Positions 6,993 to 21,173 of a stretch of DNA of 64,000 bases are shown piece after piece; position 1 is the stretch's first letter, and every line of letters starts with the position of its first letter. The DNA is from Flavobacterium sp. 245 (GTDB lineage: Bacteria > Bacteroidota > Bacteroidia > Flavobacteriales > Flavobacteriaceae): the NCBI RefSeq assembly GCF_004362055.1, contig NZ_SNXB01000002.1, positions 248,001 to 312,000 of the forward strand, in the 5' to 3' direction. The position numbers and the translations under genes were made by a program. Below the pieces are notes generated by a model that ran no database searches, was not told the origin of the DNA, and worked only from the letters and a program-made list of their open reading frames with translations.

Positions 6993-7580
6993 TTACATCA
7001 TCAATAATTTTTCAATTGTTCCTACTGGAAAACTATCAGCTTTAAGTATTTTATTATTTAGCCTTTTGAAACGTTTCGTTTCTTTGCCGTTGTAATGTGT
7101 TTTAAAATACTTTTTAAAGCGTTCTTCATATACGTCGTCTGAAAGGTAACACGCATCAAATATTTTACTTAAATCCCTATTCTTTTTACTTTCTATTTGT
7201 TTTTGATACATCAAACTATTAAAGGCTTCACGATGCAAAAAATAACCACTATGCAAATATAATTTTCTACAATGCTTTTTAGTGCTTGGACAAACAAAAT
7301 ATAAAACCTCTCCTTTGCCTAAATTCGAGGGTTTACTAATTATCTTAACTTTATAATTTTTAGGTTCTCCATTACATTTATAATCCAAAATAATAAATGT
7401 TTCAAAATCATTCTTTGTAACTTTTATACCAATATTTGAATGTGGTGTTCCGTTCCTACTCCAACTAACTGTACCCGATTTAGTACCATTATAAGTTAAG
7501 TAATCCCATTCTTTGAGTTTCTTTAGTGATAAAAACAAACAGTCTTCTACTGTTGTTGGATAATTTGCGTAACGTCCCAT
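6993..7580 (-). CDS. Conserved hypothetical protein, zinc-ribbon-like
   Basis: 195 residues from the ATG at 7580; two residues earlier there is only a TTG. I do not recognise a named family. The middle part reads VLYFVCPSTKKHCRKLYLHS followed by GYFLHREAFNSLMYQKQIES. This pattern resembles small phage- and plasmid-associated proteins with C-x-x-C...CRKLYL...F.CR.C..L.Y zinc ribbons, but most of the second cysteine pair is missing here. The C-terminus is rich in Lys and predicted helical. It lies alone between the origin-like repeats and the cassette array, so a role in element maintenance is possible but unproven. Confidence 0.6.
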   Translation of the reverse strand: MGRYANYPTTVEDCLFLSLKKLKEWDYLTYNGTKSGTVSWSRNGTPHSNIGIKVTKNDFETFIILDYKCNGEPKNYKVKIISKPSNLGKGEVLYFVCPSTKKHCRKLYLHSGYFLHREAFNSLMYQKQIESKKNRDLSKIFDACYLSDDVYEERFKKYFKTHYNGKETKRFKRLNNKILKADSFPVGTIEKLLMM

Positions 7581-7706
7581 AGACAATAACCTAAATTATT
7601 AAGGAATATTGATTGTTTTTTGATAACTAAAATACGGAAAACTATCCTAATTACCTATAAATAAGCAACATAAAACTAAGCTAATCATTTCATTTTCAAC
7701 AATAAA

Positions 7707-7791
7707 CCTGAATTTACCAAATCATCCAAATACAAAACCAATTACCCATTAAGCCAATTGCCCAAATCCGTTGTAGTAGCTGTTGTACGAA
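7707..7791 (-). repeat. attC-like site A, truncated (distal end of cassette array)
   Basis: Read on the minus strand it starts CGTACAACAGCTACTACAAC and continues with the same ATTTGGGCA...GGCTTAATGG core as the other sites. It fades out after the ACCAAATCATCC segment (plus-strand view). The opposite arm carrying ACTACAGCGGG is absent, so this last site is only half preserved. The rest of 7587-7800 holds nothing else that I can identify. Confidence 0.65.
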
Positions 7792-7800
7792 GTATTTTAT

Positions 7801-8193
7801 TTAGTTATATGGTTTTAATTTTTTATCCTTTTTTATTTCTTCAATTATTGTTTTATAGTCAAGAATTAATGTGTCAACTTTTTTATAAACAGTGATTGTA
7901 TATTCTCCCTTTTTTTTATCTATAGAATCTCCAACTAAAATTTCGGACCAAAAATTACCAACTACTGAAATTTTCGAATTATTCAATACGATAGTCGGAC
8001 TATTATGATTCTCTTTATCATAATATTTTTCAATGACATTTCCAGAAAAATTTTCATTCAAAATATTGTCAAAATTTTTTTTGTAGAATGATTCTTTATC
8101 GTTGTAGAAGATTTCCCAAATTAAAATGAATAGTATACATATAACAACTCCTATATTCAATATTTTTTTTAATTGAGCATTCGATAGTTCCAT
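7801..8193 (-). CDS. Cassette 1: small membrane-anchored protein of unknown function
   Basis: 130 residues. One hydrophobic segment at residues ~11-27 (ILNIGVVICILFILIWEIF) probably anchors the protein, with the rest outside the cytoplasm. The later part, with SPTIVLNNSKISVVG...VGDSIDKKKGEYTITVYKK, resembles small secreted or anchored proteins common in Bacteroidota accessory regions that lack an assigned function. Its start side carries GTTGTACGAA and its stop side TTCGTACAAC. These ends are mutually complementary, marking the gene as a single mobile cassette with attC-like site A. Confidence 0.65.
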   Translation of the reverse strand: MELSNAQLKKILNIGVVICILFILIWEIFYNDKESFYKKNFDNILNENFSGNVIEKYYDKENHNSPTIVLNNSKISVVGNFWSEILVGDSIDKKKGEYTITVYKKVDTLILDYKTIIEEIKKDKKLKPYN

Positions 8194-8224
8194 TGTTAAG
8201 TTTTGAATGTTTATTGGTTTATTT

Positions 8225-8361
8225 CGTACAACGTTCTGGCACTACAGCGGGTTTGGGATTAAATTAAGCCTTATTTTCGGATTTGCCAAATCATCCCAAA
8301 TACAAGACCATTTTTCCATTAAGCCAAATGCCCAAATTGCTTGTAGCGTGTGTTATGAGCC
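8225..8361 (-). repeat. attC-like site B
   Basis: About 137 bp between two cassette genes. On the minus strand it begins GGCTCATAAC, contains an arm like ACAAGCAATTTGGG and a matching arm CCAAACCCGCTGTAGT, and ends at GTTGTACG. The arms can pair over ~15 bases with mismatches. The sequence is closely similar to sites C and D. Confidence 0.75.
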
Positions 8362-8365
8362 GTTT

Positions 8366-9214
8366 TTATTTCAGTTGTTCAATGACTTTTTTCTCAAATG
8401 ATTTAGATAATATTTCTTCGTCATTATTCCAATGTGTTAGAGTCTTTTCATCTGTTGGGCATTTATGATGAAAGCCTAAAACTTTGATTTTTGATTTCTT
8501 ATTATCGCCACTAATTACAAGTTTTGCGTCATATCCTTCAAAACAAAAATCTTCGAAAATAAATAAGTCCATTGTGTCTTTCACAAACTTATCAATAGGT
8601 GGCTTTTTTGCATCAATTGTGTCCCAATAATATTTATGAATTTTGTATTTTCCAGTTGAGTCTAAAATGTAATTTTCTTTTTCTTTTTCATATTGATTAG
8701 AAATAGTTTTCAGGTAATAAATTTTTGTTTTAAGAGTATCAATAGGAAAGTCAAAAGTATATTCGTTTTTATATTCTATTTCTGAATCATAGCTAGTAGC
8801 TATAAAAGAAAAAGAGGTCAAAATAACAATAAATGTTGGATTAATAGTTGTGAAATTTTTATTAACTTTTTGATGATATGAGTAGGAAATTGGCAAAATT
8901 AGTAGTGCTAACAAATCAGTCAAATCAACAACTCTATTCAGTTTAATTATAGATAACTGATTTATAATTTCAAATAAAGCTTCGCTATAAACTGTTTTCC
9001 AATAAATGAATATAATTGCTGAGGCAAAGTATATTTTGTCTTTTAATTTAGGAAATAGAATGGTCCAAAATAAGGGAAAAATAAACAATCCTGCAAAGTC
9101 AGACAATTTTCCAGTCAGCCAATTTCCATAATAAATTTTAAAGTAAAAGTCATTCAGAAGTAAAATGGTTAAGGCTAAAATAAATCCTATTGATGTGAAT
9201 TCTCTTTGTTTCAT
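8366..9214 (-). CDS. Cassette 2: polytopic membrane protein of unknown function
   Basis: 282 residues. The first half is strongly hydrophobic with about four or five membrane helices (residues ~8-25, 38-55, 60-75, 95-110, 125-145). It includes the motif NWLTGKLSDFAGLFIFPLFW, which I recognise from a widespread but uncharacterised family of integral membrane proteins. The second half is polar and probably extracytoplasmic. The gene is flanked by complementary ends GTTATGAGCC (start side) and GGCTCATAAC (stop side), with site B directly downstream, so it is a complete cassette. No function can be assigned. Confidence 0.7.
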   Translation of the reverse strand: MKQREFTSIGFILALTILLLNDFYFKIYYGNWLTGKLSDFAGLFIFPLFWTILFPKLKDKIYFASAIIFIYWKTVYSEALFEIINQLSIIKLNRVVDLTDLLALLILPISYSYHQKVNKNFTTINPTFIVILTSFSFIATSYDSEIEYKNEYTFDFPIDTLKTKIYYLKTISNQYEKEKENYILDSTGKYKIHKYYWDTIDAKKPPIDKFVKDTMDLFIFEDFCFEGYDAKLVISGDNKKSKIKVLGFHHKCPTDEKTLTHWNNDEEILSKSFEKKVIEQLK

Positions 9215-9249
9215 TTGATCGTGTTAGGAATTGATCTGTGGTCTAAAAT

Positions 9250-9386
9250 GGCTCATAACGTCTTGGCACTACAGCGGGTTTGGGGTTAAATTAAGCCTAT
9301 TCTTCGGATTTGCCAAATCATCCAAGTACAAAGCCATTTTCCCATTAAGCCTCTTGCCCAAATCCGTTGTAGTGGCTGTTAGCGGT
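9250..9386 (-). repeat. attC-like site C
   Basis: About 137 bp. On the minus strand it begins ACCGCTAACAGCCACTACAA and ends CTGTAGTGCCAAGAC-GTTATGAGCC. Arms ACTACAACGGATTTGG and CCAAACCCGCTGTAGT are complementary with two mismatches. The stop codon TAA of the upstream gene (cassette 3) lies inside the GCTAAC core. Confidence 0.78.
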
Positions 9387-9921
9387 TCGGCTTTTTCTCA
9401 AGTTGTTTATTTAAACTATTCTTTAATAATCTTTCCAAATCGTCAAAATCATATTTTAAAGTATTGGAAGTTATAGACAAAGAGGTTCCGTACATTTTTT
9501 CATTTGCAAGCAATAGTTTACGTTGAATGAATCCAACTCTATCAAGGTATTTGTCCGCATTATTCGTAAAAATAAGTAAAAATTTTGTCGACATTATTTG
9601 TTCAGTTTTAATTTCTGTAATGTCTGTCCAATTTATTAAACCAACACTTGATGCATTTGTATTATCAGTAATTCCATTTTCGTCAACTGTTAAACCAACT
9701 GTATTATCAAACAATTTTCTAATTCCATAAATACCTGCGACACCACAGAATAAAACACTTGCAATACCTGAAATTCTTATAAACTCAGGGCTTCGCATTA
9801 TCGGTGAAATAAATTCTTCAGGATTAATTACAAAAAGTGTCCCTAACACCCCAAAAATCACTGCTCCAAGTAATAACAAAATTATTTTAGTCTTGCTTAA
9901 TGGTATTTCAATTTTATTCAT
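9379..9921 (-). CDS. Cassette 3: STM3941-like membrane protein
   Basis: 180 residues. It starts IEIPLSKTKIILLLLGAVIF and has two N-terminal membrane helices (residues ~10-31 and ~50-66). A cytoplasmic PH-like domain follows with GLTVDENGITDNTN, INWTDITEIK and FLLIFTNNADKYLDR. This order matches the family annotated as STM3941, whose role is not established. Its last codon and stop are formed by the attC-like core (CGC TAA C). The ends GTTAGCGGT and ACCGCTAAC are complementary and specific to this cassette. Confidence 0.75.
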   Translation of the reverse strand: MNKIEIPLSKTKIILLLLGAVIFGVLGTLFVINPEEFISPIMRSPEFIRISGIASVLFCGVAGIYGIRKLFDNTVGLTVDENGITDNTNASSVGLINWTDITEIKTEQIMSTKFLLIFTNNADKYLDRVGFIQRKLLLANEKMYGTSLSITSNTLKYDFDDLERLLKNSLNKQLEKKPNR

Positions 9922-9973
9922 TTTAATACTATTGTTTCAGTTCGTTTTTGTTCTCCAGTTTCGTTGCAAGCTG

Positions 9974-10110
9974 ACCGCTAACGTTCTGGTACTACAGCGG
10001 GTTTGGCACTAAATTAAGCCCATTCTTTGGATTTGCCAAATCATCACAAATACAAAACCAACTTTCCATTAAGCCAAATGCCCAAATCCGTTGTAGTAGC
10101 TGTTAGGCAC
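9974..10110 (-). repeat. attC-like site D
   Basis: About 137 bp. On the minus strand it begins with GTGCCTAAC, whose last seven bases GCCTAAC fit the integron inverse core RYYYAAC exactly. It has arms ACTACAACGGATTTGG and CCAAACCCGCTGTAGT, and ends GTTAGCG. This is the best-matching site of the array. Confidence 0.8.
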
Positions 10111-10117
10111 TGGCTAT

Positions 10118-10840
10118 TTATTTCTTTCCACCGAATAATCTTGATAGAAAACCTTGTTTCACTCGTTTCTCAACTATCCAAATTGGTTCATCACTTGGTC
10201 TTATGATTTTTGTGTTCGGTCCTGATTTACCCCAAGGAAATCCAGTTTTTATAGGTTGATTAGTCAAGTCCGCCACTAAAAACATTTCTGGTAGTTCAAC
10301 TTGTCCGTTTTCAAAGTCATAATACTTTTCATTTTTTTCCATTATTCCGACTTTTTCACTCCAAATATCCATTACGGTCTTTTCGTGAATAATGTCCAAG
10401 TGCGATTGATTTCCTTTTTGTCCGAACTCGTCAACGTGTCTTATGAACTCCGTCAAATTTTCAGAGTGTTTTACAACGACAGATGGGTCGTGACAGACAT
10501 AATAAACTGAATTCCAATTTCCCTTAGAGTCAATATCTAAAATCCAAAAATTCCCAAACCCATCTCCTGCAAGTTGTATTGATTTTGGAAACATTTCTTC
10601 AAATCCAAAATGACCGAATGCATCAAAACGTACTTCTTCAAGTCCATAAAACTCAAAACCTTTGCTGAATCTTAATAATTCTTCGATTTCATTCGGTAAG
10701 TTGTTATCTGGAAGCTGATTTTTCAGGTTTTCTATTTCACTGTCGGTCATTCCGTCCAGCAATTCGACTTTATACAAATCTCCGTCTTCAGATTCATATT
10801 GGTTTGAAAGAATTGATTCTAATTGTTGTTTTGATGTCAT
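10118..10840 (-). CDS. Cassette 4: SMI1/KNR4 (SUKH) family protein
   Basis: 240 residues. The pattern LPNEIEELLRFSKGFEFYGL followed by ...DAFGHFGFEE, QLAGDGFGNFWILDID and YYVCHDPSVV is typical of SMI1/KNR4-SUKH domains, where a conserved GDG.GN.W segment is diagnostic. The family includes many immunity proteins against contact-dependent and polymorphic toxins, and no cognate toxin is present here, so a stand-alone (orphan) immunity role is plausible. The C-terminal ~60 residues, with FPWGKSGPNTKI, form an extra basic extension ending in FLSRLFGGKK. Complementary ends GTTAGGCAC and GTGCCTAAC delimit it as a cassette. Confidence 0.8.
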   Translation of the reverse strand: MTSKQQLESILSNQYESEDGDLYKVELLDGMTDSEIENLKNQLPDNNLPNEIEELLRFSKGFEFYGLEEVRFDAFGHFGFEEMFPKSIQLAGDGFGNFWILDIDSKGNWNSVYYVCHDPSVVVKHSENLTEFIRHVDEFGQKGNQSHLDIIHEKTVMDIWSEKVGIMEKNEKYYDFENGQVELPEMFLVADLTNQPIKTGFPWGKSGPNTKIIRPSDEPIWIVEKRVKQGFLSRLFGGKK

Positions 10841-10863
10841 TTCTGTTCGTGTTGTTTTAGCTT

Positions 10864-10948
10864 GTGCCTAACTTGTATATATGTCTGACGACATCAGACA
10901 TAGCACTCCTAAATTGGGTCGCTATGTCTGACAAATGTCAGGGTTTAT
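10864..10948 (-). repeat. attC-like site E, unrelated in sequence (proximal end of array)
   Basis: ATGTCTGACGACATCAGACATAGC at ~10879-10902 (24 bases, given here in two parts: ATGTCTGACGAC, ATCAGACATAGC) pairs with GCTATGTCTGACAAATGTCAG at 10921-10941, leaving small bulges. The site ends on the plus-strand left at GTGCCTAAC, the complement of the cassette-4 end. Bulged arms next to a core site are attC-like. It could be an attC of another lineage or an attI-like entry site. The rest of 10841-11054 has nothing else recognisable. Confidence 0.5.
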
Positions 10949-11054
10949 TTATTTTCAAATATATAATAATAAACTTATAAATGATCAAAAGGACTTTTAA
11001 TTTGTTGAATACTCATAGGCTTTTGCTTCTTACTTCATTTTTTTTTAAAATTAG

Positions 11055-11282
11055 TTAGTCTATCCAAAGAAAGTCGTCCGTTTTCGGGTTCGAATAGGTG
11101 GAATTGATTTCAATAAGTTCCTTAATATTATTAATCTCGTTTTCAAGTCGTTTACATTCGTGCCTAGTGCAAAATGCCTTTCGTATATTTTGCTCAATCG
11201 TTTGTATCTTTTGTTCAATTCCTGCAATCTCTCGGTTAATAGAATATTCCGTTCTGTCATTTTCAATTGTATTTTGAAACAT
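11055..11282 (-). CDS. Small coiled-coil protein of the replicase operon
   Basis: 75 residues, predicted almost entirely helical with heptad-like spacing (IAGIEQKIQTIEQNIRKAF, ENEINNIKELIEI). Its ATG overlaps the last 20 bases of the upstream replicase-like gene, which suggests translational coupling. An alternative overlapping frame (68 residues, 11060-11266) is less likely because it lacks this overlap arrangement and has the poorer composition. I do not recognise a family. Confidence 0.5.
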   Translation of the reverse strand: MFQNTIENDRTEYSINREIAGIEQKIQTIEQNIRKAFCTRHECKRLENEINNIKELIEINSTYSNPKTDDFLWID

Positions 11283-13458
11283 AATTAATATTGTATTTAG
11301 ATTCTATTTTGAATAAATCAATAATCTCGCTTACTGCTTCTTTTGTTAGCCTCATTTGTTCCGTTCGTATTAAGTCTAATTTGTGCCAATCTTTAATTTG
11401 TTTGGCCAGTTGTTTTGCTTGCCTTTCTTTTGTCTGTTTTTTATCAATTTTAGGACAAAACAACATTTTACCCGCCAAACTCTGCTCTATTATAATACTC
11501 TTTATAATAGACGATGGTTCAGCATCCAAAGTGAGGGTTTTTGAATTTATTGTCTTTCGGCCTGCCTTGTCGATTTCAAACATTTTCAAACGTAAATTGT
11601 AATATTGACCTCCTTTGGGTTTTCGGTCAATTTTATATTGGCCAATAATCCAGCGTTTTAATAAGTTCTTAAATTTTTCAAACATCCAAAAATCAGTACA
11701 CAATCCCGTTGCCGTGTTTTGTGCTAGCATATTATTAAAATCAATATCATCGGTTTTGTTTTCGTTATAAATTGTAGTAATACGGGTTTGCCTAATAACT
11801 GGAACAAAATCGGTTGCGGTTTCAGCCTGCAATAAGCGTGAATAAGAAACAATGTCAAAGTTTAAATACTTCCGAATGTGCTGACAAAAAACGTGCGTTA
11901 CATCTGCTTCGAGTGTGTAATCGTTTAACACTAACAAAGTGTTATAAGCGTTTTTTATTTCGTTAAAAATTGGTTTTTCTGTATCAATTTTTGGAGCGTA
12001 ATAACTAAACTTTTCTTTATGGTAATTTATGCCAACGTACACGCTAAAACGTTCCTCCCTTTCAGTTTCAGCACGCCAAACAACTTCAACATAATCAGTA
12101 AATATCAAAACTATGTCAGGAATTTTGCCAATTTCATATTTGATAGCAACGCGCTTATTCGTTATTCCATTAAAATAAATTGCTTTTGGCGTGTTGTATT
12201 GGCGTGTTTCGATTTCAAAATTTGTTTTGTGCTGTTCTGTTGGCTTTAATTCAAATTGTATTATTCCATTTTCAAAAGACGTTATCAGTTGAGAATAATT
12301 CACATCACGTCTTTTTAACAAATAAACCGCATCGTGTCCGCGTGTTGAACCTTTGATTTTATTAACCTTTATAAAAATGTCCGTGTATTTCAATTCGAAC
12401 TTACTGGCAAAGTGTCCAAACAAATATTCAGATGCATCTGTAACCTCTTTTATTATCCGTGTGGCCTGTTTGGGTGTCCAACCGAAACCGCATAAGTCAG
12501 TATGATATTGTTTTTGTTTAGCGGGTGATTTTCGGAACTCTCGCCAATTCAATATTGATTGAAATTTACGCTTTGCCTCATCTCTCGTTATTCCATGAGC
12601 CTTTGCATAATTATCATAAGCCGTTTTTGATACGTTTGAACCAACAAGCAAATCGATATACGATAAATGACCGCTTTTAATATCAAACTCAATCATTTCA
12701 AAGGGCTGTACTTTGCGAAGAATTCGAGGTGTCTGTATCAATTTATTGTAAATGCGGTACTCTGAAACTTTTCCCTTTTTTATTGGAAACTCATATTTGA
12801 AATTTATGCAATTATGGCCTAAACTTATAAGCGTGTTTGCAATCAAATCCAATGTTCCATAATACCAATTGTTTAAATAGTTATCTTTTGAGAAATTTGA
12901 TGGTTTTACTCCCTCACCGTTCCAATTCTTAAAAGTGTCAATTTTAGTAAATGCGCGCGTCAATTGTGTTTTGTCTAAATCATTTGGCAAAATAATGCCG
13001 TGCAATCTGTAATACTCAACAACCTTAATATATTGATGTTGGCCAAACATTTTTGAACCAAAAAAATAGGCCGTTTGAATAATCAAATAAGATTCCATGA
13101 ATAATTCAGCATTAAACAATTGTTTATAATCGGTTTTATCTATTGTGTAAATTGGTATGTATTGAGTATAATTACACGCGTCAAAATAACCTTTTATACT
13201 CGCAATTGTAGTTGTTCCGTTTGCTTTATAACTATGCTTTTTGTTTTCCGCATCGTAATAAACAAAAATATTATCATAAAAATAATTGATAGCCAAATAT
13301 GTAAGACTGTCAAAATGATACCCGTTTATAGTATTGAAATTCGATAGATTTTCTATTCCGTTCCTTAGTGCACTTTCTGTATCGGGGTTTGCACGTCGAT
13401 AGGACGAAAGTAAATTATTCAAATCAGTATCAACACTTATTGTGTTGTACTTTATCAT
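11263..13458 (-). CDS. Putative element replicase with family-A DNA-polymerase-like motifs
   Basis: 731 residues, not matching a family I can name with certainty. Around residue 259 it has FDIKSGHLSYIDLL, which aligns with motif A of family-A polymerases (DYSQIELRxLAHL): Asp first, Leu at positions 7 and 13. At ~292-299 RDEAKRKF resembles motif B (RxxAKxxxF). At ~374-380 RGHDAVYL resembles motif C (xVHDExx). The order A-B-C is correct, but the spacings (~33 and ~80 residues) are shorter than in Pol I. There is no 3'-5' or 5'-3' exonuclease domain before it. The gene sits one base after a small DNA-binding-like gene. A replication function for the element is an inference from these motifs, the origin-like repeats and the operon context. 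Confidence 0.55.
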   Translation of the reverse strand: MIKYNTISVDTDLNNLLSSYRRANPDTESALRNGIENLSNFNTINGYHFDSLTYLAINYFYDNIFVYYDAENKKHSYKANGTTTIASIKGYFDACNYTQYIPIYTIDKTDYKQLFNAELFMESYLIIQTAYFFGSKMFGQHQYIKVVEYYRLHGIILPNDLDKTQLTRAFTKIDTFKNWNGEGVKPSNFSKDNYLNNWYYGTLDLIANTLISLGHNCINFKYEFPIKKGKVSEYRIYNKLIQTPRILRKVQPFEMIEFDIKSGHLSYIDLLVGSNVSKTAYDNYAKAHGITRDEAKRKFQSILNWREFRKSPAKQKQYHTDLCGFGWTPKQATRIIKEVTDASEYLFGHFASKFELKYTDIFIKVNKIKGSTRGHDAVYLLKRRDVNYSQLITSFENGIIQFELKPTEQHKTNFEIETRQYNTPKAIYFNGITNKRVAIKYEIGKIPDIVLIFTDYVEVVWRAETEREERFSVYVGINYHKEKFSYYAPKIDTEKPIFNEIKNAYNTLLVLNDYTLEADVTHVFCQHIRKYLNFDIVSYSRLLQAETATDFVPVIRQTRITTIYNENKTDDIDFNNMLAQNTATGLCTDFWMFEKFKNLLKRWIIGQYKIDRKPKGGQYYNLRLKMFEIDKAGRKTINSKTLTLDAEPSSIIKSIIIEQSLAGKMLFCPKIDKKQTKERQAKQLAKQIKDWHKLDLIRTEQMRLTKEAVSEIIDLFKIESKYNINYVSKYN

Positions 13459-13459
13459 T

Positions 13460-13735
13460 TCAATAATCCTTTTTAGTCGATAGATACCACGCTTGAAAAC
13501 CTGTTATTTTACAACGTTTCATTTCAACTTCGAAATGCAAACCGAGTTTTTCCAAACTACGTTTATATTGAGTGAGTTTTTTTTGCAGGGTATTTAGTGC
13601 ATTACTCACCATTGAATTAGTGGTAATATGAGTTTTTAGATATTCAAAATATCGGTTTTCCTGAGCTTTAAAAAAGTTATCTTTGCTTTGAAGTGTCGAA
13701 AGATAATTGCGGTGGTTAGTATTATTACTTCCCAT
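13460..13735 (-). CDS. Small helix-turn-helix-like protein
   Basis: 91 residues. The part RYFEYLKTHITTNSMVSNAL...RSLEKLG followed by CKITGFQAWYLSTKKD has the layout of short Bacteroidota element proteins. In those, a winged-helix stretch precedes a conserved C-x-I-T-x-x-x-A-x-Y-L-(S/T)-T tail. They accompany integrase and replication genes and are thought to bind DNA. The gene follows the HTH gene after 3 bases and precedes the replicase-like gene by 1 base, so all belong to one operon. Confidence 0.6.
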   Translation of the reverse strand: MGSNNTNHRNYLSTLQSKDNFFKAQENRYFEYLKTHITTNSMVSNALNTLQKKLTQYKRSLEKLGLHFEVEMKRCKITGFQAWYLSTKKDY

Positions 13736-13738
13736 CGC

Positions 13739-14020
13739 TTATTTTTTTAAAGGAATTAAACATTCCAATAATTCCGCTTTTTTGTAGTATCTGCGGTTTC
13801 CAATTCCATAGGCAATAACTTTGCCTTTATTTGTCCAATGCCATAAAGTACTGCTATCGATTTGTAGATAATCGCACGTTTGTTCTCGGGTTAATAACTC
13901 ATCAGGGTTATGAATATTAAAGCTATTTTTAAAGTCTTCTAATTGACTTTTCACACCCTGTTTGATTAACTCCGTTAATGCTTCAGGACTTAAATTTTGA
14001 AGTAAGATTGAATTTTGCAT
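13739..14020 (-). CDS. Excisionase-like helix-turn-helix protein
   Basis: 93 residues from the ATG at 14020; the frame could also begin at a TTG three codons earlier. The C-terminal half, LLTREQTCDYLQIDSSTLWH followed by WTNKGKVIAYGIGNRRYYKK, is the winged HTH_17 / excisionase-family domain (MerR-like helix-turn-helix plus wing). It is likely to regulate the operon and/or assist excision by the integrase. A perfect 10-bp inverted repeat lies just upstream of the start, a good candidate for its own operator. Confidence 0.85.
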   Translation of the reverse strand: MQNSILLQNLSPEALTELIKQGVKSQLEDFKNSFNIHNPDELLTREQTCDYLQIDSSTLWHWTNKGKVIAYGIGNRRYYKKAELLECLIPLKK

Positions 14021-14023
14021 TTT

Positions 14024-14054
14024 TTGCAATGTTTTTATGTTTATAACATTGCAA
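14024..14054. promoter_or_regulatory. Palindromic operator upstream of the excisionase-like gene
   Basis: TTGCAATGTT (14024-14033) and AACATTGCAA (14045-14054) are perfect inverted repeats 11 bases apart, immediately upstream of the HTH start. Autoregulation or integrase-accessory binding is inferred. Confidence 0.6.
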
Positions 14055-14118
14055 ATATTGGTTTGGGCTTGTATCCTAAAAGATTACGGTTTGTACCTTT
14101 TTGGGTATGGTTTGTACC

Positions 14119-15663
14119 TTAATTTCTATAAAGCTCTTTTGCTCGTGCATAAGCTTGTAACCGTTGATTTGTTCTACTATGATTTGAAATTTTTTGTACA
14201 ATCAAACCCTTGTAAGTTTCAGGAATCCATTCTAAAAAAGTTTTTTGATTAACGGTATTATGAATTAAGCCTTCTTTTTTCATTTCTTCAAACATAAACT
14301 TTACATCCGTCCTACTTCGTTCATTAATTTCAAACTCATCAAACATAGATTGCCATACCTCAAAAGCATTTTCTTTAAAAATATGATTGTGTAATTCTTT
14401 TTTACCTTCATCATTAAATAAAGGTTCAGTTTGTTTAGATTTTAAATTATCGGTTGCAATTGTTTTCTCATATAACTCTTTATAATCTAAGTAAAGTTTT
14501 AAATCAACTAAAAAACGAGGTGTACTACCAATCAATTGAACTTTATAATGATTATTAATAAAAGCAATGTTAAGCGAGTTTTTGCATTGATTCATTGCTT
14601 TTTTTGAATATTCACGAACTTCATCAATTTCAGAAGCCACGTCTGCTGTTTTAAATTTATTTTGTTGAGTTTGTAAAAACTCATACACATTAATATTTTC
14701 TTTGGATAAATCGACTTTTAAAGCTTCATTGGTATAAAAACTTAAAAAGTCCGTAAAATCGTTAAAATGAATTTTATTGTTTTGAGGTTGTTGAGATTGC
14801 AATTTAAGTAGATAGTCTTTGTATCTATCCTTTATTATTTTATAATCAGTTTTATTTATTGTCAAGTTTGCAAGGTTTTCTAACTCTAGTTTTATTTTTT
14901 CATTTTGTGTATAATTTCTATTATGCTTTTCCATTCTTTGGATAAAGAAAATATCTTTTAAATCATCCCAATTTTCAGGTTTTATAAAACTATCATTATT
15001 AAACTCTCTATTTTTATTGTTTTCAAAATAAATTTTAAAAAAGTTTATATCGCTTAAAGATTTTGCAATACTTTGTTTTGTTAAAGTATTTGTTGTTGGA
15101 AATATAACTTCAGTAAGTAAATCAATAACTTCGCTCATATCATTAACGAGCTTTGATTTAAATTTAAACACTTCAAATTTTTTATCTTCAGGTTCTATAA
15201 AAAAATCAAATAATTCCTTTAAATCTCTTTCTAAATCACTAAAAAACATATCATTGAAATAGTTGCATTTTGTTGATTCTCTAAATTCAATATATTTATT
15301 TTTCTGAAATAAAATTTCAGGAATATCGGCTTCTTCAAAATTTTCTTTTAAAGTATATATTTCACTAAGACCCCACTGCCAAAATCTCTGATTAGTAAAA
15401 TAACCCAGTTCTAAATCTGTTGCTTTTTTATAAAGTGGCAGTATGATGTTTTTATGAATGACATCAAATTTTTGTTCTAATTCAGTTTGGATTTTATCAT
15501 ATTTCAATTTATGCACAAAATTTTCACGAGGTTTTAAATTACATCTTTGTTCGTCTAAATTCTGCAACTCAACAATTATATTATGGTGTTTTTTGAAGTA
15601 TGAAATGTTTGAATGTAAATAATCAATAAATTGAAAGAGATGTTTTATTTTTTCTGTTATCAT
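14119..15663 (-). CDS. Conserved hypothetical protein of integrative elements
   Basis: 514 residues, mostly helical and Lys/Asn-rich, without signal peptide or membrane segment. The C-terminal ~80 residues (ERSRTDVKFMFEEMKKEGLI, KTFLEWIPETYKG, SNHSRTNQRLQAYARAKELY) resemble the tails of uncharacterised proteins found beside tyrosine recombinases in Bacteroidota elements. That tail has a repeated pattern of an F.F.Y..M..DG.I helix and a W....Y segment. It may act as a regulatory or recombination accessory protein, as RteC does in conjugative transposons, but similarity to RteC is not clear. It is 57 bases downstream of the integrase gene on the same strand. Confidence 0.65.
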   Translation of the reverse strand: MITEKIKHLFQFIDYLHSNISYFKKHHNIIVELQNLDEQRCNLKPRENFVHKLKYDKIQTELEQKFDVIHKNIILPLYKKATDLELGYFTNQRFWQWGLSEIYTLKENFEEADIPEILFQKNKYIEFRESTKCNYFNDMFFSDLERDLKELFDFFIEPEDKKFEVFKFKSKLVNDMSEVIDLLTEVIFPTTNTLTKQSIAKSLSDINFFKIYFENNKNREFNNDSFIKPENWDDLKDIFFIQRMEKHNRNYTQNEKIKLELENLANLTINKTDYKIIKDRYKDYLLKLQSQQPQNNKIHFNDFTDFLSFYTNEALKVDLSKENINVYEFLQTQQNKFKTADVASEIDEVREYSKKAMNQCKNSLNIAFINNHYKVQLIGSTPRFLVDLKLYLDYKELYEKTIATDNLKSKQTEPLFNDEGKKELHNHIFKENAFEVWQSMFDEFEINERSRTDVKFMFEEMKKEGLIHNTVNQKTFLEWIPETYKGLIVQKISNHSRTNQRLQAYARAKELYRN

Positions 15664-15720
15664 GGCTTTAAAATCAATGGTCTAAATACTGGAAATGTAT
15701 TTCAAAAATGAAAATTTTAA

Positions 15721-17067
15721 TTAAAAATAGTTGGTTAGTTCCATAGCTAAATCCTTGTTACTTTTACCCAAATAATTTAAAAACATTGCTTCGGTGCTAT
15801 GCCCCGTAACATTGATTAAATAAGTAGTTGGAATAGTTCCGTAAAAATTAGTAGCAAAAGAACGTCTTCCAATATGTGAGGTTATTAATTCCCATTTTTT
15901 AAACATTCCAATTTCTTTGCGATACTGCTTAACCTCATCTTTATTTTTGGTTTTCTTTTGGGCTTTGTCCTCTTGGTTTAAATCTGTTAATTTACTGCCT
16001 TTAATTTCATTAGTCAATCCAGCTATACGGCAAACTTGTTTTATAAATAAATTATACTTTGGGTCTGAAATAGGTTTAGGAAAATCATTATTTCTTTTTT
16101 CTAAAATTTCAATTACTTTAGGGTGTAATGCAACTGTCATAACTTTATTGGTTTTGACTTGTGTAAACTCAATAAATGGCTTCAAATCGCCTTGTTTGTT
16201 TTTTTCGTATCTAATCATTGATTTATCAAATCGCATAAAATCTGATATTCTTTGTCCTGTATAGCAACTAATAATTAACCAGTCTTTAGCATTGTCATAA
16301 TTATCATTTAAACGTCTTTTGTCAATGTTTTCAATCTTTGTAAGTTCCTCAAAGGTTAAATAAATCTTTTCAGTCTTATGCTGAGGTGTTTTAATTTTAT
16401 CTAATTGGTGGCTCGTAGTAATACCGTTATGCTTTGCGTGATTACAAACTGTTTTAATAGTTCTTAAATCCTTTGAAATAGTATTTAAAGCATAATTGTT
16501 TTTTAAACAATAATTTTCAAAATCCATTTTGAATTTATCGTTTATATCAGAAATTTTAATTTTGTGATTTAATGTTTTTTGATAACGCTCTAATAAGTGT
16601 TTTGAAACATTGTATTTTTTTTGAGTACCAATTGTTATTTCATTTTTTTTGACTTCCATAAAATAATCAAAGTACTTTAAAAGTTCCGTTGGTAGTTCTT
16701 CTGCTTCCTTTGGTGGATTGTAATAAAAATCAATTTGAGTTTGCAACCATTCTTTATTTACCTCATCAGGATTAACAGAATTGAAAATTTTTAAAATGTA
16801 GTTTTCAATCTTGTTAAGTTCAGTATTTACTTCTAAGCGTCTATTTAAAATGTCAGGGTCTTTTGAGCCTTTGATTTTGATTTCTTTAATACCCTTTTCT
16901 TTGTTCGCTTTAATTTCAGCGTGATGTCCAAACCAATTGAAGTAATCAATTTCAAACTTTGTATTTGCTCCAATAACAAAATCAGTATCATTGAAACGAT
17001 ACAATAAACGTAAATGCAAATTTGCTTTGTCTTTAGTTGAGCGATACAAAAAGTTAACCGTAGCCAT
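15721..17067 (-). CDS. Tyrosine recombinase (phage/element integrase)
   Basis: 448 residues. The N-terminal arm-binding region is followed by a SAM-like core-binding domain (~125-225, LLKYFDYFMEVKKNEITIGT). The catalytic domain contains Arg273 in CYTGQRISDF, a lysine in QVKTNKVM near 305-308, His398/Arg401 in TSHIGRRSFAT, His423 in VTGHSTEAM and the nucleophile Tyr432 in FLNYLGKS. All catalytic positions are therefore present. It would insert and excise the element at the tRNA-Arg 3' end, and its gene lies 197 bases from attR. It is not an IntI: the extra integron-integrase helix between the catalytic boxes is not evident. Confidence 0.95.
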   Translation of the reverse strand: MATVNFLYRSTKDKANLHLRLLYRFNDTDFVIGANTKFEIDYFNWFGHHAEIKANKEKGIKEIKIKGSKDPDILNRRLEVNTELNKIENYILKIFNSVNPDEVNKEWLQTQIDFYYNPPKEAEELPTELLKYFDYFMEVKKNEITIGTQKKYNVSKHLLERYQKTLNHKIKISDINDKFKMDFENYCLKNNYALNTISKDLRTIKTVCNHAKHNGITTSHQLDKIKTPQHKTEKIYLTFEELTKIENIDKRRLNDNYDNAKDWLIISCYTGQRISDFMRFDKSMIRYEKNKQGDLKPFIEFTQVKTNKVMTVALHPKVIEILEKRNNDFPKPISDPKYNLFIKQVCRIAGLTNEIKGSKLTDLNQEDKAQKKTKNKDEVKQYRKEIGMFKKWELITSHIGRRSFATNFYGTIPTTYLINVTGHSTEAMFLNYLGKSNKDLAMELTNYF

Positions 17068-17089
17068 ATTATAAAGTATTTGAATAATA

Positions 17090-17097
17090 CAAATATA
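17090..17097 (-). promoter_or_regulatory. -7 promoter element of the integrase gene
   Basis: CAAATATA on the plus strand is TATATTTG on the minus strand, fitting TAnnTTTG, 23 bases before the integrase ATG. Confidence 0.55.
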
Positions 17098-17263
17098 ATT
17101 AATTTGTACGGTATTTGTACGGTAAAATGAAAGTTACATCAAACTATTGCAAAGTAAATCAAAATAAACATTTCTGTAAAGTATTGATTTTATTGATATT
17201 TTACAGTACTTTTGTACAAAATGCTAGTATAATTGATTTTGTAGTTTTGCAACTATTGTAGTT

Positions 17264-17276
17264 CAGTCGAGGTCAC
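17264..17276. repeat. attR: 13-bp copy of the tRNA-Arg 3' end
   Basis: CAGTCGAGGTCAC is identical to 6364-6376. The bases upstream do not form a tRNA, so this is the distal attachment site. Confidence 0.85.
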
Positions 17277-17285
17277 CACACTGCC

Positions 17286-17322
17286 AAAAGGCGCCAATTG
17301 AAGACAATTGACGCCTTTTTTT
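17286..17322 (+). terminator. Terminator GGCGCC-type (copy 1), original tRNA-Arg terminator
   Basis: AAAGGCGCCAATTG pairs with CAATTGACGCCTTT around AAGA, followed by a T-run. It probably terminated the tRNA-Arg transcript before the element inserted. Near-identical hairpins occur at 23583 and 63013. Confidence 0.75.
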
Positions 17323-17580
17323 ATTATACTTTACTAATTTATTAGTCTAAAGAGCTGCAGTATGCTATATTTTATTGCATCAGTATAAAAAGTTGCGTAT
17401 TTAGTAGAGCTGAAAGGCAGGTTGCAATGTTTAGATTCTTCATTTATTTTTTGCTGGAAATAATAATAGCTTTGAGAGAATTGCTGCATATGGTATTAAA
17501 ACAAAATTGAGTATTTACTAAAAATACAACAATTGGCTTCCAATATACAGTTCTCCAAAGACAAAATAGGGCTCTCCAGC

Positions 17581-17790
17581 AGCCCTAGCCCCGATAGCAG
17601 TGAAAATCCTTTTGTGCCGGGGTTCGGCACAAAAGATTGGAACGTATAGCGGGAAAAAGCTCCTAAAAAAGAATATTATATACAATTGACCCGGAGTTCG
17701 GTACAAAAGATTGCTTCGCCAGTTTGCTGACCCTCGGGTGGAACGTATAGCGAGAAGAGCTCCTAAAAAATAATATTATATACAATTGAC
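17581..17790. repeat. Flavobacterial intergenic repeat, one full and one partial copy
   Basis: Copy 1 (17581-17690) contains CTAGCCCCGATAGCAGTGAA, a hairpin-like CTTTTGTGCCGG...CGGCACAAAAG segment, and GGAACGTATAGCGGGAAAAA followed by GCTCCTAAAAAA. Copy 2 (about 17700-17790) repeats GTACAAAAGATTG, GGAACGTATAGCGAGAAGAG and GCTCCTAAAAAA, and both end in AATATTATATACAATTGAC. I recognise this as a family repeated many times in Flavobacterium intergenic regions. The stretch 17323-17580 shows nothing else identifiable, and the apparent ORF across the repeat is not a gene. Confidence 0.65.
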
Positions 17791-17804
17791 GATGATGACC
17801 ACTC

Positions 17805-18148
17805 CAAATTAATTGCCTAATTTATCATATAAATAACACCAAATACCTTTTACCTTAATATAAGTCTCATCTAATCTCCAGCTCGCGCCCACTCTACCTT
17901 TCCTCTTTCTCACCTCTGATTCAATGAAAGGTGTAAACTTATAAACCCAGCGCTGAATCGTAGCATGATCCACAAGCACTCCTCTAATTTTCATTATTTC
18001 TTCAACGTCACGGTAACTAAGTGTAAATCTTAATTTAAAATATACTGCCTGAAGAATTATGCATTTTGGATAACAATGACCTTTAGTATTCATTTTTTGA
18101 TGGGTTTAAAATTATAAAGATAAAGTTATTCCCAAATGCGACAGAACC
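17805..18148 (-). pseudogene. Truncated IS6-family transposase and IS right end
   Basis: The N-terminal ~90 residues of a transposase nearly identical to the intact copy at 63170-63835. It begins MNTKGHCYPKCIILQAVYF and includes the first catalytic Asp in WRLDETYIKV. Relative to the intact copy it has lost nine bases (the residues before DKLGN) and everything beyond residue ~94, including the second Asp and the Glu. The right terminal repeat AATGCGACAGAACC is preserved at 18135-18148. The element landed inside an ISAon1-like transposase gene whose remains continue from 18149. Confidence 0.85.
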
Positions 18149-18330
18149 TCTCTTTTTGCTTCTGCAGAGGCATTAGTACTTCTGCTGTGAAAATAATTTA
18201 ATATAGTTTGATAATGATTTATAATTATATGTGAGATGATACCAAAAGACTTAAACCCAGATTGATCTACTTCTTCATGCCATTTGCTTTATCTTCTATT
18301 TGATTTCTTTATCAATAGCTTTTAATTTAA
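18149..18330 (-). pseudogene. ISAon1-type transposase remnant interrupted by the IS6 element
   Basis: Minus-strand translation gives KWHEEVDQSGFKSFGIISHI followed by NHYQTILNYFHSRSTNASAE. This is the conserved C-terminal part of ISAon1/ISL3-like transposases, whose usual form is ...NHY..ILNYF.NRSTNASAESFN. The reading breaks off exactly at the IS6 right end. A second, shorter remnant of the same gene type is at 23789-23890. Confidence 0.75.
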
Positions 18331-18375
18331 CAACAATATCACTTAAATTTACTTTAAAAATTTAAAACTGATAGT

Positions 18376-19173
18376 ATGAAAAAGAATCAAATACCAAACA
18401 GACGGTTTTCTACTTTAATAGTAATTTTTCTAGTTAGTTTAATCAGTGTGCAAGCACAAAATATAAAGGGTCAAAATATTAAAAATATTGTTCTCGTACA
18501 TGGTGCCTTTTTAGATGGTTCTGGTTGGGAACCCGTTTATAACATTCTAACAAAAAAGGGCTATAAAGTATCTGTAACACAGCATTCATTGCAAGATTTT
18601 GATGATGATGTGGCAGCGGTTAACCGAATTATAGAACAACAGGACGGTCCTTGTATTTTAGTTGGACACAGCTATGGTGGTGTTGTAATTACACAGGCAG
18701 GCAATAATCCTAAAGTGGCAGGGTTAGTTTACATTGCTGCTCATGCTCCCGACGAAGGTGAACTCAGGGCAGATTTAGTAAAACAATTTCCTTCAGCATA
18801 CAAGTCGTTGATAAAAGGAAGTGACGGTTTAGATTATATTGATCCGGAAAAATTTCCTGAAGATTTCGCAGGTGACCTTGAAATCAATAAAGCTCGTTTT
18901 ATGGCAAATTCTCAGGTTCCAACAGCAGATAAAATTTTTAAGGGAATTGTAAATAAATCAGCCTGGAAAACAAAACCCAGCTGGTATATGGTAGCTGAAT
19001 CAGACAGAATTATAAATCCCGATCTGGAAAGATTTTATGCAAAAAGAGCAAAAAGTAAAAAGGTTGTCGAAATAAAAGGTGGCAGCCACGCCATTTACAC
19101 TTCACAGCCTGAAAAAGTTGCAGATTTAATTAAAGATGCTTCCATTGGATCTTTAGTTTCTAAAATAAAATAG
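18376..19173 (+). CDS. Secreted alpha/beta hydrolase
   Basis: 265 residues with a signal peptide (hydrophobic FSTLIVIFLVSLISV, cleavage near QAQN). It has the oxyanion-loop motif VLVHGAFLDGSGW, the nucleophile elbow GHSYGGVV and a C-terminal GGSHAIYTSQ segment holding the catalytic His. It belongs to the large, non-specific alpha/beta hydrolase family (salicylate-esterase/pyrethroid-hydrolase-like branch). It probably acts in the periplasm. It is the only gene of this small cluster that stands on its own strand, with a hairpin terminator after it; the substrate cannot be inferred. Confidence 0.88.
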   Translation: MKKNQIPNRRFSTLIVIFLVSLISVQAQNIKGQNIKNIVLVHGAFLDGSGWEPVYNILTKKGYKVSVTQHSLQDFDDDVAAVNRIIEQQDGPCILVGHSYGGVVITQAGNNPKVAGLVYIAAHAPDEGELRADLVKQFPSAYKSLIKGSDGLDYIDPEKFPEDFAGDLEINKARFMANSQVPTADKIFKGIVNKSAWKTKPSWYMVAESDRIINPDLERFYAKRAKSKKVVEIKGGSHAIYTSQPEKVADLIKDASIGSLVSKIK

Positions 19174-19215
19174 TAAGTTCACTTTTTTCAAATTGAGCAA
19201 AACATAAGAACTAAA

Positions 19216-19248
19216 AAACCTCTAAAAATCAAATGATCTTAGAGGTTT
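19216..19248 (+). terminator. Hairpin between convergent genes
   Basis: AAACCTCTAA (19216-19225) pairs with TTAGAGGTTT (19239-19248). It lies between the convergent hydrolase and SDR genes and could end transcription from the hydrolase. Confidence 0.55.
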
Positions 19249-19318
19249 ATAAAGTGAGTTCAAAAAAGTAGTAAAATTTAAATTTACTGATGTACTATCA
19301 TCAATTCTTTTTTATTAT

Positions 19319-20065
19319 TTACGCAGATATTCCCCCATCAATAGTAAAGCTACTTCCTGTAATATAACTGGATTCTGGCCCGGCTAAAAAATTAACCAAT
19401 CCTGCTACTTCTTCCGGTTTACCAAAACGTTTAAGAGGAATTGCATTGATGAAAGCTTCCCTTACAGCATCATCCCCAGGCAACATGTCTGTATCTATTG
19501 CACCGGGTTCAACTGTATTTACAGTAATATTTCTTGGCGCTAAATCCCATGCAAGTCCCCTTGTGTAAGCTCCAATTGCTGCTTTAGTAGCAATATAATC
19601 AGACATATAAGGACTACCAATACGTTTTGCGCCCACTGAACCGATACTAACAATCCTTCCACCATCCGGCATATATTTAATAACCGAACGAACAGCTTCA
19701 GATACAGCTCTTATGTTAACATTGATCTGACGATCATATTCATCGATTCTTTCAGATGCTGTTTCCAATGGTCCTTTTACTGAGATTGCAGCATTATTAA
19801 CTAAAATATCTATTTTTCCATATTTCAATGCAATCTGATCGATCGATTTTTCTAAGGCTCCTTTAATTGAGCTATCTACTTTAATAGCCAACGATTCGCC
19901 TCCTGATTCTTTTATTCCTTTTACTATATTTTCTGCTGTTTGTTCAGAACTTACATAGGTGAAGATAACATTTGCTCCTTCAGCCGCTAAGCGCTTAACA
20001 ATTGCTGCACCCATGCCACGAGTTCCTCCCGTAACAAATGCTGTTTTACCTTTTAGTGTTGACAT
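19319..20065 (-). CDS. SDR-family oxidoreductase (3-oxoacyl-ACP reductase-like)
   Basis: 248 residues, classical SDR length. The cofactor site is TGGTRGMGAAI, the NAG-type motif is NNAA (VNNAAIS), the catalytic Ser is in VSIGSVGAK and the catalytic pair YMSDYIATKAA gives Tyr-x-x-x-Lys. The C-terminus FLAGPESSYITGSSFTIDGG is typical of FabG-like enzymes that use NAD(P)H. It lies 78 bases after the quinone-oxidoreductase-like gene on the same strand, probably one operon controlled by the divergent HxlR regulator. Confidence 0.92.
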   Translation of the reverse strand: MSTLKGKTAFVTGGTRGMGAAIVKRLAAEGANVIFTYVSSEQTAENIVKGIKESGGESLAIKVDSSIKGALEKSIDQIALKYGKIDILVNNAAISVKGPLETASERIDEYDRQINVNIRAVSEAVRSVIKYMPDGGRIVSIGSVGAKRIGSPYMSDYIATKAAIGAYTRGLAWDLAPRNITVNTVEPGAIDTDMLPGDDAVREAFINAIPLKRFGKPEEVAGLVNFLAGPESSYITGSSFTIDGGISA

Positions 20066-20143
20066 TATATTTTTTTTATGATTAATAATTAATTATGTGG
20101 GTGAATAATTGGTTGTAGAATATTTTGGAAATGGTGTAACTTA

Positions 20144-21091
20144 TTAATCCATTATAATCACAATTTTCCCTTGCGTGTGTCCTTTTTCTATTTCAAGATG
20201 TGCTTTTGCTATATCCTTCCATGAAAAAACCTTTGATATATGCGGAACTAATTTTCCTTCTTCTAAGAGTTTTGCGACGAATTTCATATCCTGTCCATTA
20301 AATGATACCATATTATAGAATGCATTAATATTCAAGGATTTTGCTTTCAGATTTTCTTCTTCTGTTATATTTGACCAGAGACTAATTAGGCTTCCGCCTG
20401 GCTTTACCACTTCCATACTTCTCATGATATGCCCATCTGATTTAACAGCTTCAATTACGAGATCCATATCTTTCTTTAAAGTATTCTCAAAAGGACCGAG
20501 TTGGTAATCAATGAACTCGTCAGCACCCAAACTCATTACAAAATCTTTTTTAGAACTTGACGCTAAAGCAGTTACATGCGCGCCAAAATATTTTGCAAAC
20601 TGAACAGCAAAATGACCTACTCCTCCACCAGCAGCTGTTATAAATACACGATCATTTTTTTTTATTCCTACTTTCTGAATTGGCTGCAAAGCAGTAAGTG
20701 CTGCGAGTGAAGTGGCAGCAGCCTCTTCGTAAGTACTATTTTTAGGCTTGATAGCCAATTGGGAGGCAGGTGCTGCAACAAATTCTGCGTATGTTCTGCC
20801 AATATAAGGATGCCTAAGTACTCCAAAAATATCATCCCCAATTTGCATATCAATAACTTTAGCTCCTTTTTGAACTATCTGACCCGAAACATCCCATCCT
20901 AAAATCAATGAAGATTCTTCGCCGAATATCCAGCTGACACTTTTATTTTCTCTAACAATAGCATCGGCGGGATTTATACTAACTGCCCTTACTTTTATTA
21001 GTACTTCATCGTCTTTAATAGTTGGAACAGAAACAGACTCAAAAGTAAAATTTTCAACCCCACCCTGCTCTTTCAGTACAATCGCTTTCAT
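20144..21091 (-). CDS. NADP-dependent MDR oxidoreductase (quinone reductase-like)
   Basis: 315 residues with a GroES-like N-terminal domain (SINPADAIVRENKS) and a Rossmann domain with AAGGGVGHFAVQFAKYFGA. The zinc ligands of alcohol dehydrogenases are absent, which places it in the QOR-like branch of medium-chain reductases. It reduces quinones or activated alkenes with NADPH. It is the first gene of a minus-strand operon with the SDR gene and shares a palindromic promoter region with the divergent HxlR gene. Confidence 0.9.
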   Translation of the reverse strand: MKAIVLKEQGGVENFTFESVSVPTIKDDEVLIKVRAVSINPADAIVRENKSVSWIFGEESSLILGWDVSGQIVQKGAKVIDMQIGDDIFGVLRHPYIGRTYAEFVAAPASQLAIKPKNSTYEEAAATSLAALTALQPIQKVGIKKNDRVFITAAGGGVGHFAVQFAKYFGAHVTALASSSKKDFVMSLGADEFIDYQLGPFENTLKKDMDLVIEAVKSDGHIMRSMEVVKPGGSLISLWSNITEEENLKAKSLNINAFYNMVSFNGQDMKFVAKLLEEGKLVPHISKVFSWKDIAKAHLEIEKGHTQGKIVIIMD

Positions 21092-21144
21092 AATATATTG
21101 AGTAATTGATTATTTGTGATTTATTTTTATGTTTTATTTGAGTG

Positions 21145-21173
21145 CAAAGTTATTTCCATTTATCATAACTTTG
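21145..21173. promoter_or_regulatory. Back-to-back divergent promoters forming a palindrome
   Basis: CAAAGTTAT (21145-21153) and ATAACTTTG (21165-21173) are perfect inverted repeats. Each arm contains a TAACTTTG (-7 consensus TAnnTTTG) reading outward, one toward the oxidoreductase operon and one toward the HxlR gene. The regulator is likely to bind here and repress both. Confidence 0.65.

Follow-up and report, generated by a model that had tools for sequence, protein, structure and literature searches.

Integrons, among them the sedentary chromosomal ones, combine an integrase of the IntI family, an insertion site (attI), a cassette promoter (Pc), and an array of single-gene cassettes that meet at GTTR boundaries. 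Each cassette carries a 3′ attC site with paired inner arms that folds as the bottom strand and ends in a stretch complementary to the cassette's own start. Clusters of attC sites lacking integron integrases (CALIN) are also known. The parts of the literature that we consulted describe the IntI insert as essential for integron function, yet not fully conserved in a subgroup (PMC8138268), and as the feature that in practice separates integron integrases from other recombinases (PMC9668308). Bacteroidetes, or the Bacteroidetes/Chlorobi group, are given as integron carriers in passages of older and later papers (PMC8618304, PMC2426708), and in the available portion of one survey Salinibacter ruber M1 is the sole complete integron named in Bacteroidetes proper (PMC9024848). 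Among the matches listed from open-licence PubMed Central, taken without preprints, titles and abstracts held no system of the kind described below in Flavobacteria; a preprint or subscription paper may exist. Here, we analyze a cassette array in a stretch of 64,000 nucleotides from Flavobacterium sp. 245 (contig NZ_SNXB01000002.1, positions 248,001 to 312,000), hereafter the window. We hold with high confidence that the array, judged by its anatomy and relatives, belongs, as a fragment, to an integron-like system of gene capture in Bacteroidota, a phylum in which complete integrons are rarely reported and across which the same integron-like set-up recurs.

The array runs along the minus strand from 10872 to 7712 of the window, where four single-gene bodies (451–908 bp) alternate with sites of 118–119 bp, counted as the span between the AAC and GTT boundaries; only half of the last site is present. 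The original prediction had placed four minus-strand cassettes here, with sites B, C, and D complete and A truncated, and its positions for sites and genes were confirmed.

10102..10872, minus strand: body of cassette D; gene at 10118-10840, 240 amino acids, SMI1/KNR4 (SUKH) family
9983..10101, minus strand: attC-like site D, the 3′ end of cassette D
9378..9982, minus strand: body of cassette C; gene at 9379-9921, 180 amino acids, STM3941 family
9260..9377, minus strand: attC-like site C, complete
8352..9259, minus strand: body of cassette B; gene at 8366-9214, 282 amino acids, the protein without a Pfam or NCBIfam match at E 0.01
8233..8351, minus strand: attC-like site B, with hybrid inner arms
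7782..8232, minus strand: body of cassette A; gene at 7801-8193, 130 amino acids, all family matches sub-threshold
7712..7781, minus strand: attC-like site A, truncated, left half only

These cassettes are marked by complementarity between their two ends. Every cassette of the system ends with an inverted copy of its own first ∼15 bases, interrupted by a conserved mismatch at base 11; for the four in the window, 10, 10, 11, and 11 of 12 end bases match the reverse complement of the cassette's start (detector minimum, 9). Chains of such units were sought with a detector that demands GTTR and the following four bases exactly, at least 9–10 of 12 matches overall, and the next start 50–190 bases on, its parameters having been fixed after inspection of a few arrays. 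A looser detector had been dropped, since at k = 7 shuffled DNA gave chains nearly as long, and was replaced by this stricter version. Of 120 Bacteroidota-type integrase loci, 87 have at least 3 kb of downstream sequence. Chains of at least three cassettes follow the integrase in 57 of these (56 of 86 distinct loci, as L088 and L201 are one strain), and chains of at least five in 39, the longest having 28; with three shuffles each, 2 of the 87 loci reach three and none reaches five. Behind named integrase relatives, many of which have little downstream sequence or are not from Bacteroidota, chains of at least three were found at 9 of 79 loci (of 80), and any of ten shuffles reached three at 1 of 79.

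Positions outside the detector's view provide a further measure of the signature. Among 460 cassettes in 49 loci, positions 13–15 pair with the cassette's own end at 88, 86, and 76%, versus 34–46% for reshuffled ends, and pairing drops to background at position 16. Base 11 pairs in 2% of these cassettes: A stands opposite C in 386 and opposite G in 62, and the A-opposite-C mismatch is a G·T pair on the bottom strand. Neither the conserved base-11 mismatch nor the second helix at 12–15 was seen in a classical array of three cassettes (L133) or in the aadB cassette. In all, 535 cassettes stand in chains of at least two, some short ones of which may be chance. Of 405 longest open reading frames of at least 80 amino acids, 388 run in the array direction. 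Arrays in which each cassette has a 3′ attC-type site (R″, L″, L′, R′) are a property that this system shares with integrons. The original prediction called the core a relaxed form of the classical one; GTTR followed by cassette-specific bases is instead the rule here, not a decayed GTTRRRY.

Cassettes found in more than one place indicate what the mobile unit is. Fifty same-cassette pairs occur among the 535 cassettes, ten of which were set aside because they join L201 (genome G249) and L088 (F. enshiense DK69), whose cassettes are identical letter for letter. We regarded pairs as informative when the bodies were at least 93% alike, the sites on both sides were known, and the preceding sites were unrelated (51–64% alike; background mean, 56%). 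In all eight such pairs the following site is 96–100% identical. Since following sites are alike while preceding sites stand at background, the attC-like site is by this comparison part of the cassette and travels at its 3′ end, as integron attC sites do. Seven of the eight pairs lie within one array and one is between species (L200-1/L215-2, body and site 100%). Other close pairs with similar preceding sites are less telling (for example, L200-10/15: following, 89; preceding, 88).

The same unit boundaries appear across species. The array of the window is matched by 25 of 348 genomes of the genus at E ≤ 1e-50, the genome of origin included and some through sites only. Cassette D with its site is found in G114 (96% over 10872..9978 of the window) behind a different attC-like site; a copy in G152 matches at 91%, and in G164 the cassette comes first, with the match stopping inside the site. 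Cassette C with its site takes first position behind an attI-like site in G077 (88% over 9982..9256), and a 74% relative of cassette B is first in G328. Thus the search of related genomes proposed with the original prediction bore it out: cassettes C and D recur in G077 and G114 with the predicted ends and other neighbors.

Upstream of cassette D, the window retains what appears to be the insertion site and the last trace of an integrase gene:

10975..11013, minus strand: integrase 3′ remnant, coding SIQQIKSPFDHL and a stop, versus SIQQIKSPFDEL and a stop in the intact copy on contig C4 (from alignment and translation)
10956..10963, minus strand: candidate −7 element of the cassette promoter Pc, TATATTTG, of whose eight columns six are conserved in 90% or more of 38 aligned attI-like sites
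10873..10950, minus strand: attI-like site, ending TATATACAA directly before GTT, with the motif core at 10927-10930 (direct), 10895-10898 (inverted), and 10884-10887 (direct)

The remnant comprises the last 13 codons of a cassette-integrase gene and stands just before the attI-like site; window positions 11013..10927 match a locus of G077 at 88%. In this system, ∼100 bp ending TATATACAA/GTT separate the recombinase stop codon from the first cassette, so that a conserved site of ∼100 nt beside the integrase takes, at least in form, the place of attI. The genome has three copies of its last 20 bases (≤3 mismatches), one each on C3 and C4 and one in the window, and each heads an array. Over 38 aligned sites, a species-variable motif core occurs twice in direct orientation (−58 to −55 and −15 to −12 from GTT) and once inverted (−26 to −23). 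These columns covary, the direct copies being 84–89% identical and 82–92% complementary to the inverted copy; they are the top pairs in a scan of all column pairs among related sequences, which is a ranking and not a test. The TATATTTG-like box near the upstream end of the site is probably a promoter, on the basis of what we take to be the TAnnTTTG-type Bacteroidetes −7 consensus.

The 13-codon integrase end and the attI-like site identify the window array, as far as its letters tell, as the remainder of a complete system whose integrase gene was lost; the far end of the array is also cut. The statement in the original prediction that there is no integrase is correct for an intact gene in the window, but the remnant and the attI-like site are present there and two intact integrases head sister arrays elsewhere in the genome. 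These features, and the complementarity of the cassette ends, had been overlooked.

In the same genome, sites of this kind form larger arrays at C3:490-501 kb (L009, a chain of 14 cassettes) and C4:427-438 kb (L010), with small groups or single sites at C4:161 kb and on C6, C11, and C12. A 15-base arm pattern gave 91 matches at ≤2 mismatches, versus 28 for the pattern read backwards, which is beyond chance, and matches with ≤1 mismatch lie mostly in a few arrays. A scattered distribution had been named as grounds for doubt; most sites are in arrays, but a few single or cut copies do lie elsewhere (for example, C6 and C12). As to the two pairing arms of the original prediction, ACTACAACGGATTTGG and CCAAACCCGCTGTAGT are indeed found in sites C and D, and the right arm of site B is of the CCAAACCCGCTGTAGT type as claimed, but its left arm is of a different type (CTACAAGCAATTTGG). 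Such hybrid sites (window 8233-8351; L009:4275, minus strand) join left and right inner arms of different types, in both combinations, and their arms pair less well. The two inner-arm mismatches of sites C and D have the same sense as the base-11 mismatch of the cassette ends. A permissive Rfam search of window 7500-11100 returned no match at E ≤ 1, and PADLOC, run on 10 cassette proteins, gave one weak match and no convincing defence family.

The sites fold, as the original prediction expected. With DNA parameters and in the excised-circle form, the bottom strand folds better than the top in 87 of the 92 sites taken from 15 loci; for the sites as they stand in the array, the count is 80 of 92. 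Locus means of the bottom-strand z range from −3.5 to −7.5.

The C3 and C4 arrays are each headed by a gene for a 347-residue tyrosine recombinase, directly upstream and co-directional. Both proteins keep R204, K229, H294, R297, H320, and Y329 (C3 numbering), which we take to be the catalytic residues; with these conserved, the integrases are predicted to catalyze attI × attC and attC × attC exchange. The closest model is XerA NF040815 (214 and 220 bits; cut-off, 220). NCBI uses the words integron integrase in naming this model, and some of these genes are already labelled accordingly, which is a name and not a test. The integron integrase model TIGR02249 gives 204 and 201 bits, below its cut-off of 265, and its positions 177-238 are skipped. 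The conserved lysine motif lies at a distance of 65 from the HxLRH motif, versus 106 in eight recombinases with the IntI insert. Among the sequences of solved structures, an archaeal XerC-like protein and XerA match best, followed by IntI4, whose insert is skipped in the alignment.

These integrases also carry an extra N-terminal domain of ∼60 residues. In an AlphaFold2 model of a relative from F. aciduliphilum (mean predicted local distance difference test score, 88; predicted template modeling score, 0.61), a small domain of four strands and two helices precedes the usual two. XerA (Z 25.0, root-mean-square deviation 13.3, 251 aligned) and IntI4 (Z 22.3, root-mean-square deviation 3.7, 259 aligned) are the best VIA-align matches, and Foldseek ranks IntI4 first; these structure searches barely probed the N-terminal domain. 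Pfam gave one sub-threshold DUF5710 match to that domain, on one of four stretches tried.

Phylogeny places the integrases apart from IntI. Among 98 recombinases placed in one tree, the eight that carry the insert come out as a single clade at 100. A more careful tree, built from 43 recombinases with Xer as the root, unites the array integrases of Bacteroidota at 80/84, which is not firm, and excludes them from the IntI clade (100/100); in it, IntI joins six insert-free XerA-like proteins from archaea, candidate phyla, and a Firmicute at 89/92. The data neither establish nor reject a single origin for IntI and the cassette integrases of Bacteroidota (approximately unbiased test, p 0.157). Xer-type proteins of two array-bearing genomes (L023 and L066) fall in another clade. 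By model score, gap, motif distance, and clade, the linked enzyme is thus not an IntI-family integrase with the IntI insert, and because of this the system falls outside the integron family in its present definition. The genome encodes further tyrosine recombinases, for example on C5 and C17. A separate one with a Phage_int_SAM_5 domain lies at 15721-17067 of the window and presumably belongs to the island; the original prediction set the array inside a tRNA-targeted element, and no second copy of the tRNA-Arg 3′ end (22 bases, ≤3 mismatches) was found in the window.

At E ≤ 1e-110 an integrase profile matches 158 of the 348 genus genomes, and at E ≤ 1e-80 it matches 114 of 392 genomes of the phylum, in 76 of 178 genera; such matches need not be integrons. 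Arrays are present in Algibacter, Winogradskyella, Seonamhaeicola, Rufibacter, F. enshiense, and others. Chains of at least three were found at 10 of 20 loci outside the genus, chosen on long contigs, and one more locus has a clean pair (L248). At five of these loci the profile match starts at 44–65, so that most or all of the N-terminal domain is missing, and there are no chains; the same holds for four others. The 44 named loci that have at least 3 kb downstream can be divided by their estimated N-terminal extension: arrays of at least three occur at 9 of the 23 in which it reaches 40 residues or more and at 0 of the 21 in which it does not (Fisher p 0.0016). The 23 include six IntI-insert recombinases, with an array seen only for L133 and upstream, and contig ends truncate some of the 21. 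Many draft contigs (L152–L229) stop within a few kilobases downstream of the integrase, perhaps because repeated sites break assemblies. In Bacteroidetes GWF2_41_31 (L111, 8629-10741) and the relatives L110 and L112, the recombinases are much longer, with open frames of ∼680–720 residues, and L111 has a chain of five cassettes. In Oceanirhabdus (L115, 2466-13406), several direct repeats of ∼400–840 bp, 85–92% identical, lie downstream of a XerA-like recombinase, and the cassette signature is absent.

Relatives of the integrase extend to plasmids. The C4 integrase is matched by 42 plasmid records at E ≤ 1e-50, of which 24 are from Acinetobacter; the DNA of the window array was not found in the plasmids searched, and a search of 50,697 phage records for the integrase at E ≤ 1e-40 gave no match. 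On one plasmid of Acinetobacter baylyi (L232, 2967-4988), a truncated integrase relative lies ∼190 bp upstream of tet(X3), with a hairpin and GTTATGTGCC seen by eye between them. The detector does not score the tet(X3) unit as a cassette, and by eye its two ends are poorly complementary (8 of 12). On one Klebsiella plasmid, a truncated relative beside an ISAs1-family transposase precedes blaVEB-3, which by eye begins at GTTAGCGGTAAT behind an attI-like palindrome; it too is not scored, and the 3′ end of the cassette is missing. The blaVEB-1 cassette of a class 1 integron has the same GTT start and a long stem with the base-11 mismatch; that stem is absent from the neighboring aadB cassette. 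The GTTAGCGGTAAT start of blaVEB is shared by L233 (6142-7763) and L236, both Klebsiella plasmids with a truncated integrase, and by L235 (1500-2576), a class 1 integron of E. coli. Across the plasmid loci, the detector finds a chain of three in L230 (the third unit looks wrong), two in L234, one each in L231 and L233, and none in L232. In L230, a Chryseobacterium plasmid, an array-like region behind the integrase (13167-25033) holds an IS110 transposase and a group II intron. As single examples, these point to a Bacteroidota origin without proving it.

In the mechanism that we propose, a tyrosine recombinase of XerA-like lineage, without the IntI insert, would cut folded bottom-strand sites at the GTT boundary. 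Cassettes would be excised as circles (GTT, gene, AAC, site) and inserted at the attI-like site just downstream of the integrase's own gene, where the conserved promoter-like box would read into the array. The window array may be served now, or may have been served formerly, by the resident C3 and C4 integrases. The original prediction of integron-like cassettes is strongly supported. Several observations weigh against this account. Chains of at least three are lacking at 30 of the 87 loci with room for them and at 10 of the 20 outside the genus. Top strands also beat shuffles (locus-mean z, −2.3 to −6.3), and two loci, L064 (8 of 10) and L088 (6 of 9), show a weak preference for the bottom strand. 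Two of the eight informative pairs are adjacent copies (L208 1/2 and L179 7/8), which tandem duplication could also produce. Hybrid sites exist, some pairs of lower identity have different following sites (L170-4 versus L173-12 and L218-9; L160-0 versus L088-1 and L201-1), and one 95% pair, L048-3/L009-8 (L048 5139-5676, L009 9224-9757), is followed by sites of different type. Hybrid sites and exchanged following sites point to a second process that swaps sites by another route. The L048/L009 pair appears as if the attC-like site had been swapped at the AAC boundary.

In one alternative, the cassettes are real but are moved mainly by homologous recombination between the ∼118-bp sites, with the integrase a bystander; the hybrid sites, the few bodies with exchanged sites, and the two adjacent duplicates among eight clean pairs fit this. 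However, the preceding sites of the eight pairs are only 51–64% alike, that is, at background, and cassettes that come first at attI-like sites in one species follow an attC-like site in a different one; we consider this explanation very improbable. A dispersed intergenic repeat between small genes, spread by transposition and homologous recombination, would account for sites that are alike within one genome and for hybrid and single copies, but not for cassette-specific complementary ends, for cassette-plus-site units between unrelated neighbors, or for arrays that begin ∼100 nt behind the integrase stop with their reading frames in one direction. In our view it is refuted by the same-cassette pairs and by the recurrence of window cassettes in other species, and we leave it almost no probability.

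The remaining alternative, that the window holds a fragment of a classical integron with ordinary attC sites of an IntI-family integrase, draws on real likeness: integrase, insertion site, and single-gene cassette array with a GTTR boundary, R″/R′-like cores, paired inner arms, a bottom-strand fold, and an end complementary to the cassette's own start. Against it stand the linked integrases, which lie below the TIGR02249 cut-off, skip the insert, have the shorter motif distance, fall outside the IntI clade, carry the N-terminal extension, and are encoded upstream of the array and co-directional with it. In addition, the 15-nt own-end stem with its base-11 mismatch and second helix at 12–15 is not seen in the L133 cassettes or aadB, and the attI-like site bears two direct and one inverted motif copies. 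With respect to the integrase this alternative is already refuted, and overall we judge it very unlikely. A CALIN, the family to which the original prediction assigned the array, resembles it in that three full sites and one half site stand without an intact integrase beside them, but the array keeps an attI-like site and an integrase 3′ stub, and two intact integrases of this kind are encoded elsewhere in the genome; because these are not IntI, a cluster of classical attC sites appears to fit poorly. XerA and Xer recombinases share the catalytic domain and, as archaeal XerC-like and XerA chains, are with IntI4 the best matches in sequence and structure, whereas the Bacteroidota integrases are linked to attI-like sites and cassette arrays. 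The Salinibacter ruber M1 integron is likewise a complete integron within Bacteroidetes proper, but according to the consulted portion of the survey it was found by a tool that uses IntI and attC models (PMC9024848); we liken it by description, not by sequence.

The integron-like gene-capture system of Bacteroidota resembles an integron in every respect of anatomy and comparative genomics that the sequence analysis covered. Whether it is an integron of a second kind, present across the phylum, whose recombinase lineage lacked the IntI insert from the outset and possibly arose apart from IntI, and also a source of cassettes now on clinical plasmids (blaVEB and perhaps tet(X3)), seems to us evenly balanced, because tet(X3) and blaVEB-3 are not scored as cassettes and seven of the eight informative pairs lie within one array. 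If the system works without the IntI insert, that insert would be one solution and not a requirement, and, if this is true, two lineages could be compared for the evolution of single-strand cassette recombination. These results also suggest that a large pool of Bacteroidota cassettes, one that touches clinical resistance genes, escapes surveys based on IntI and attC models.

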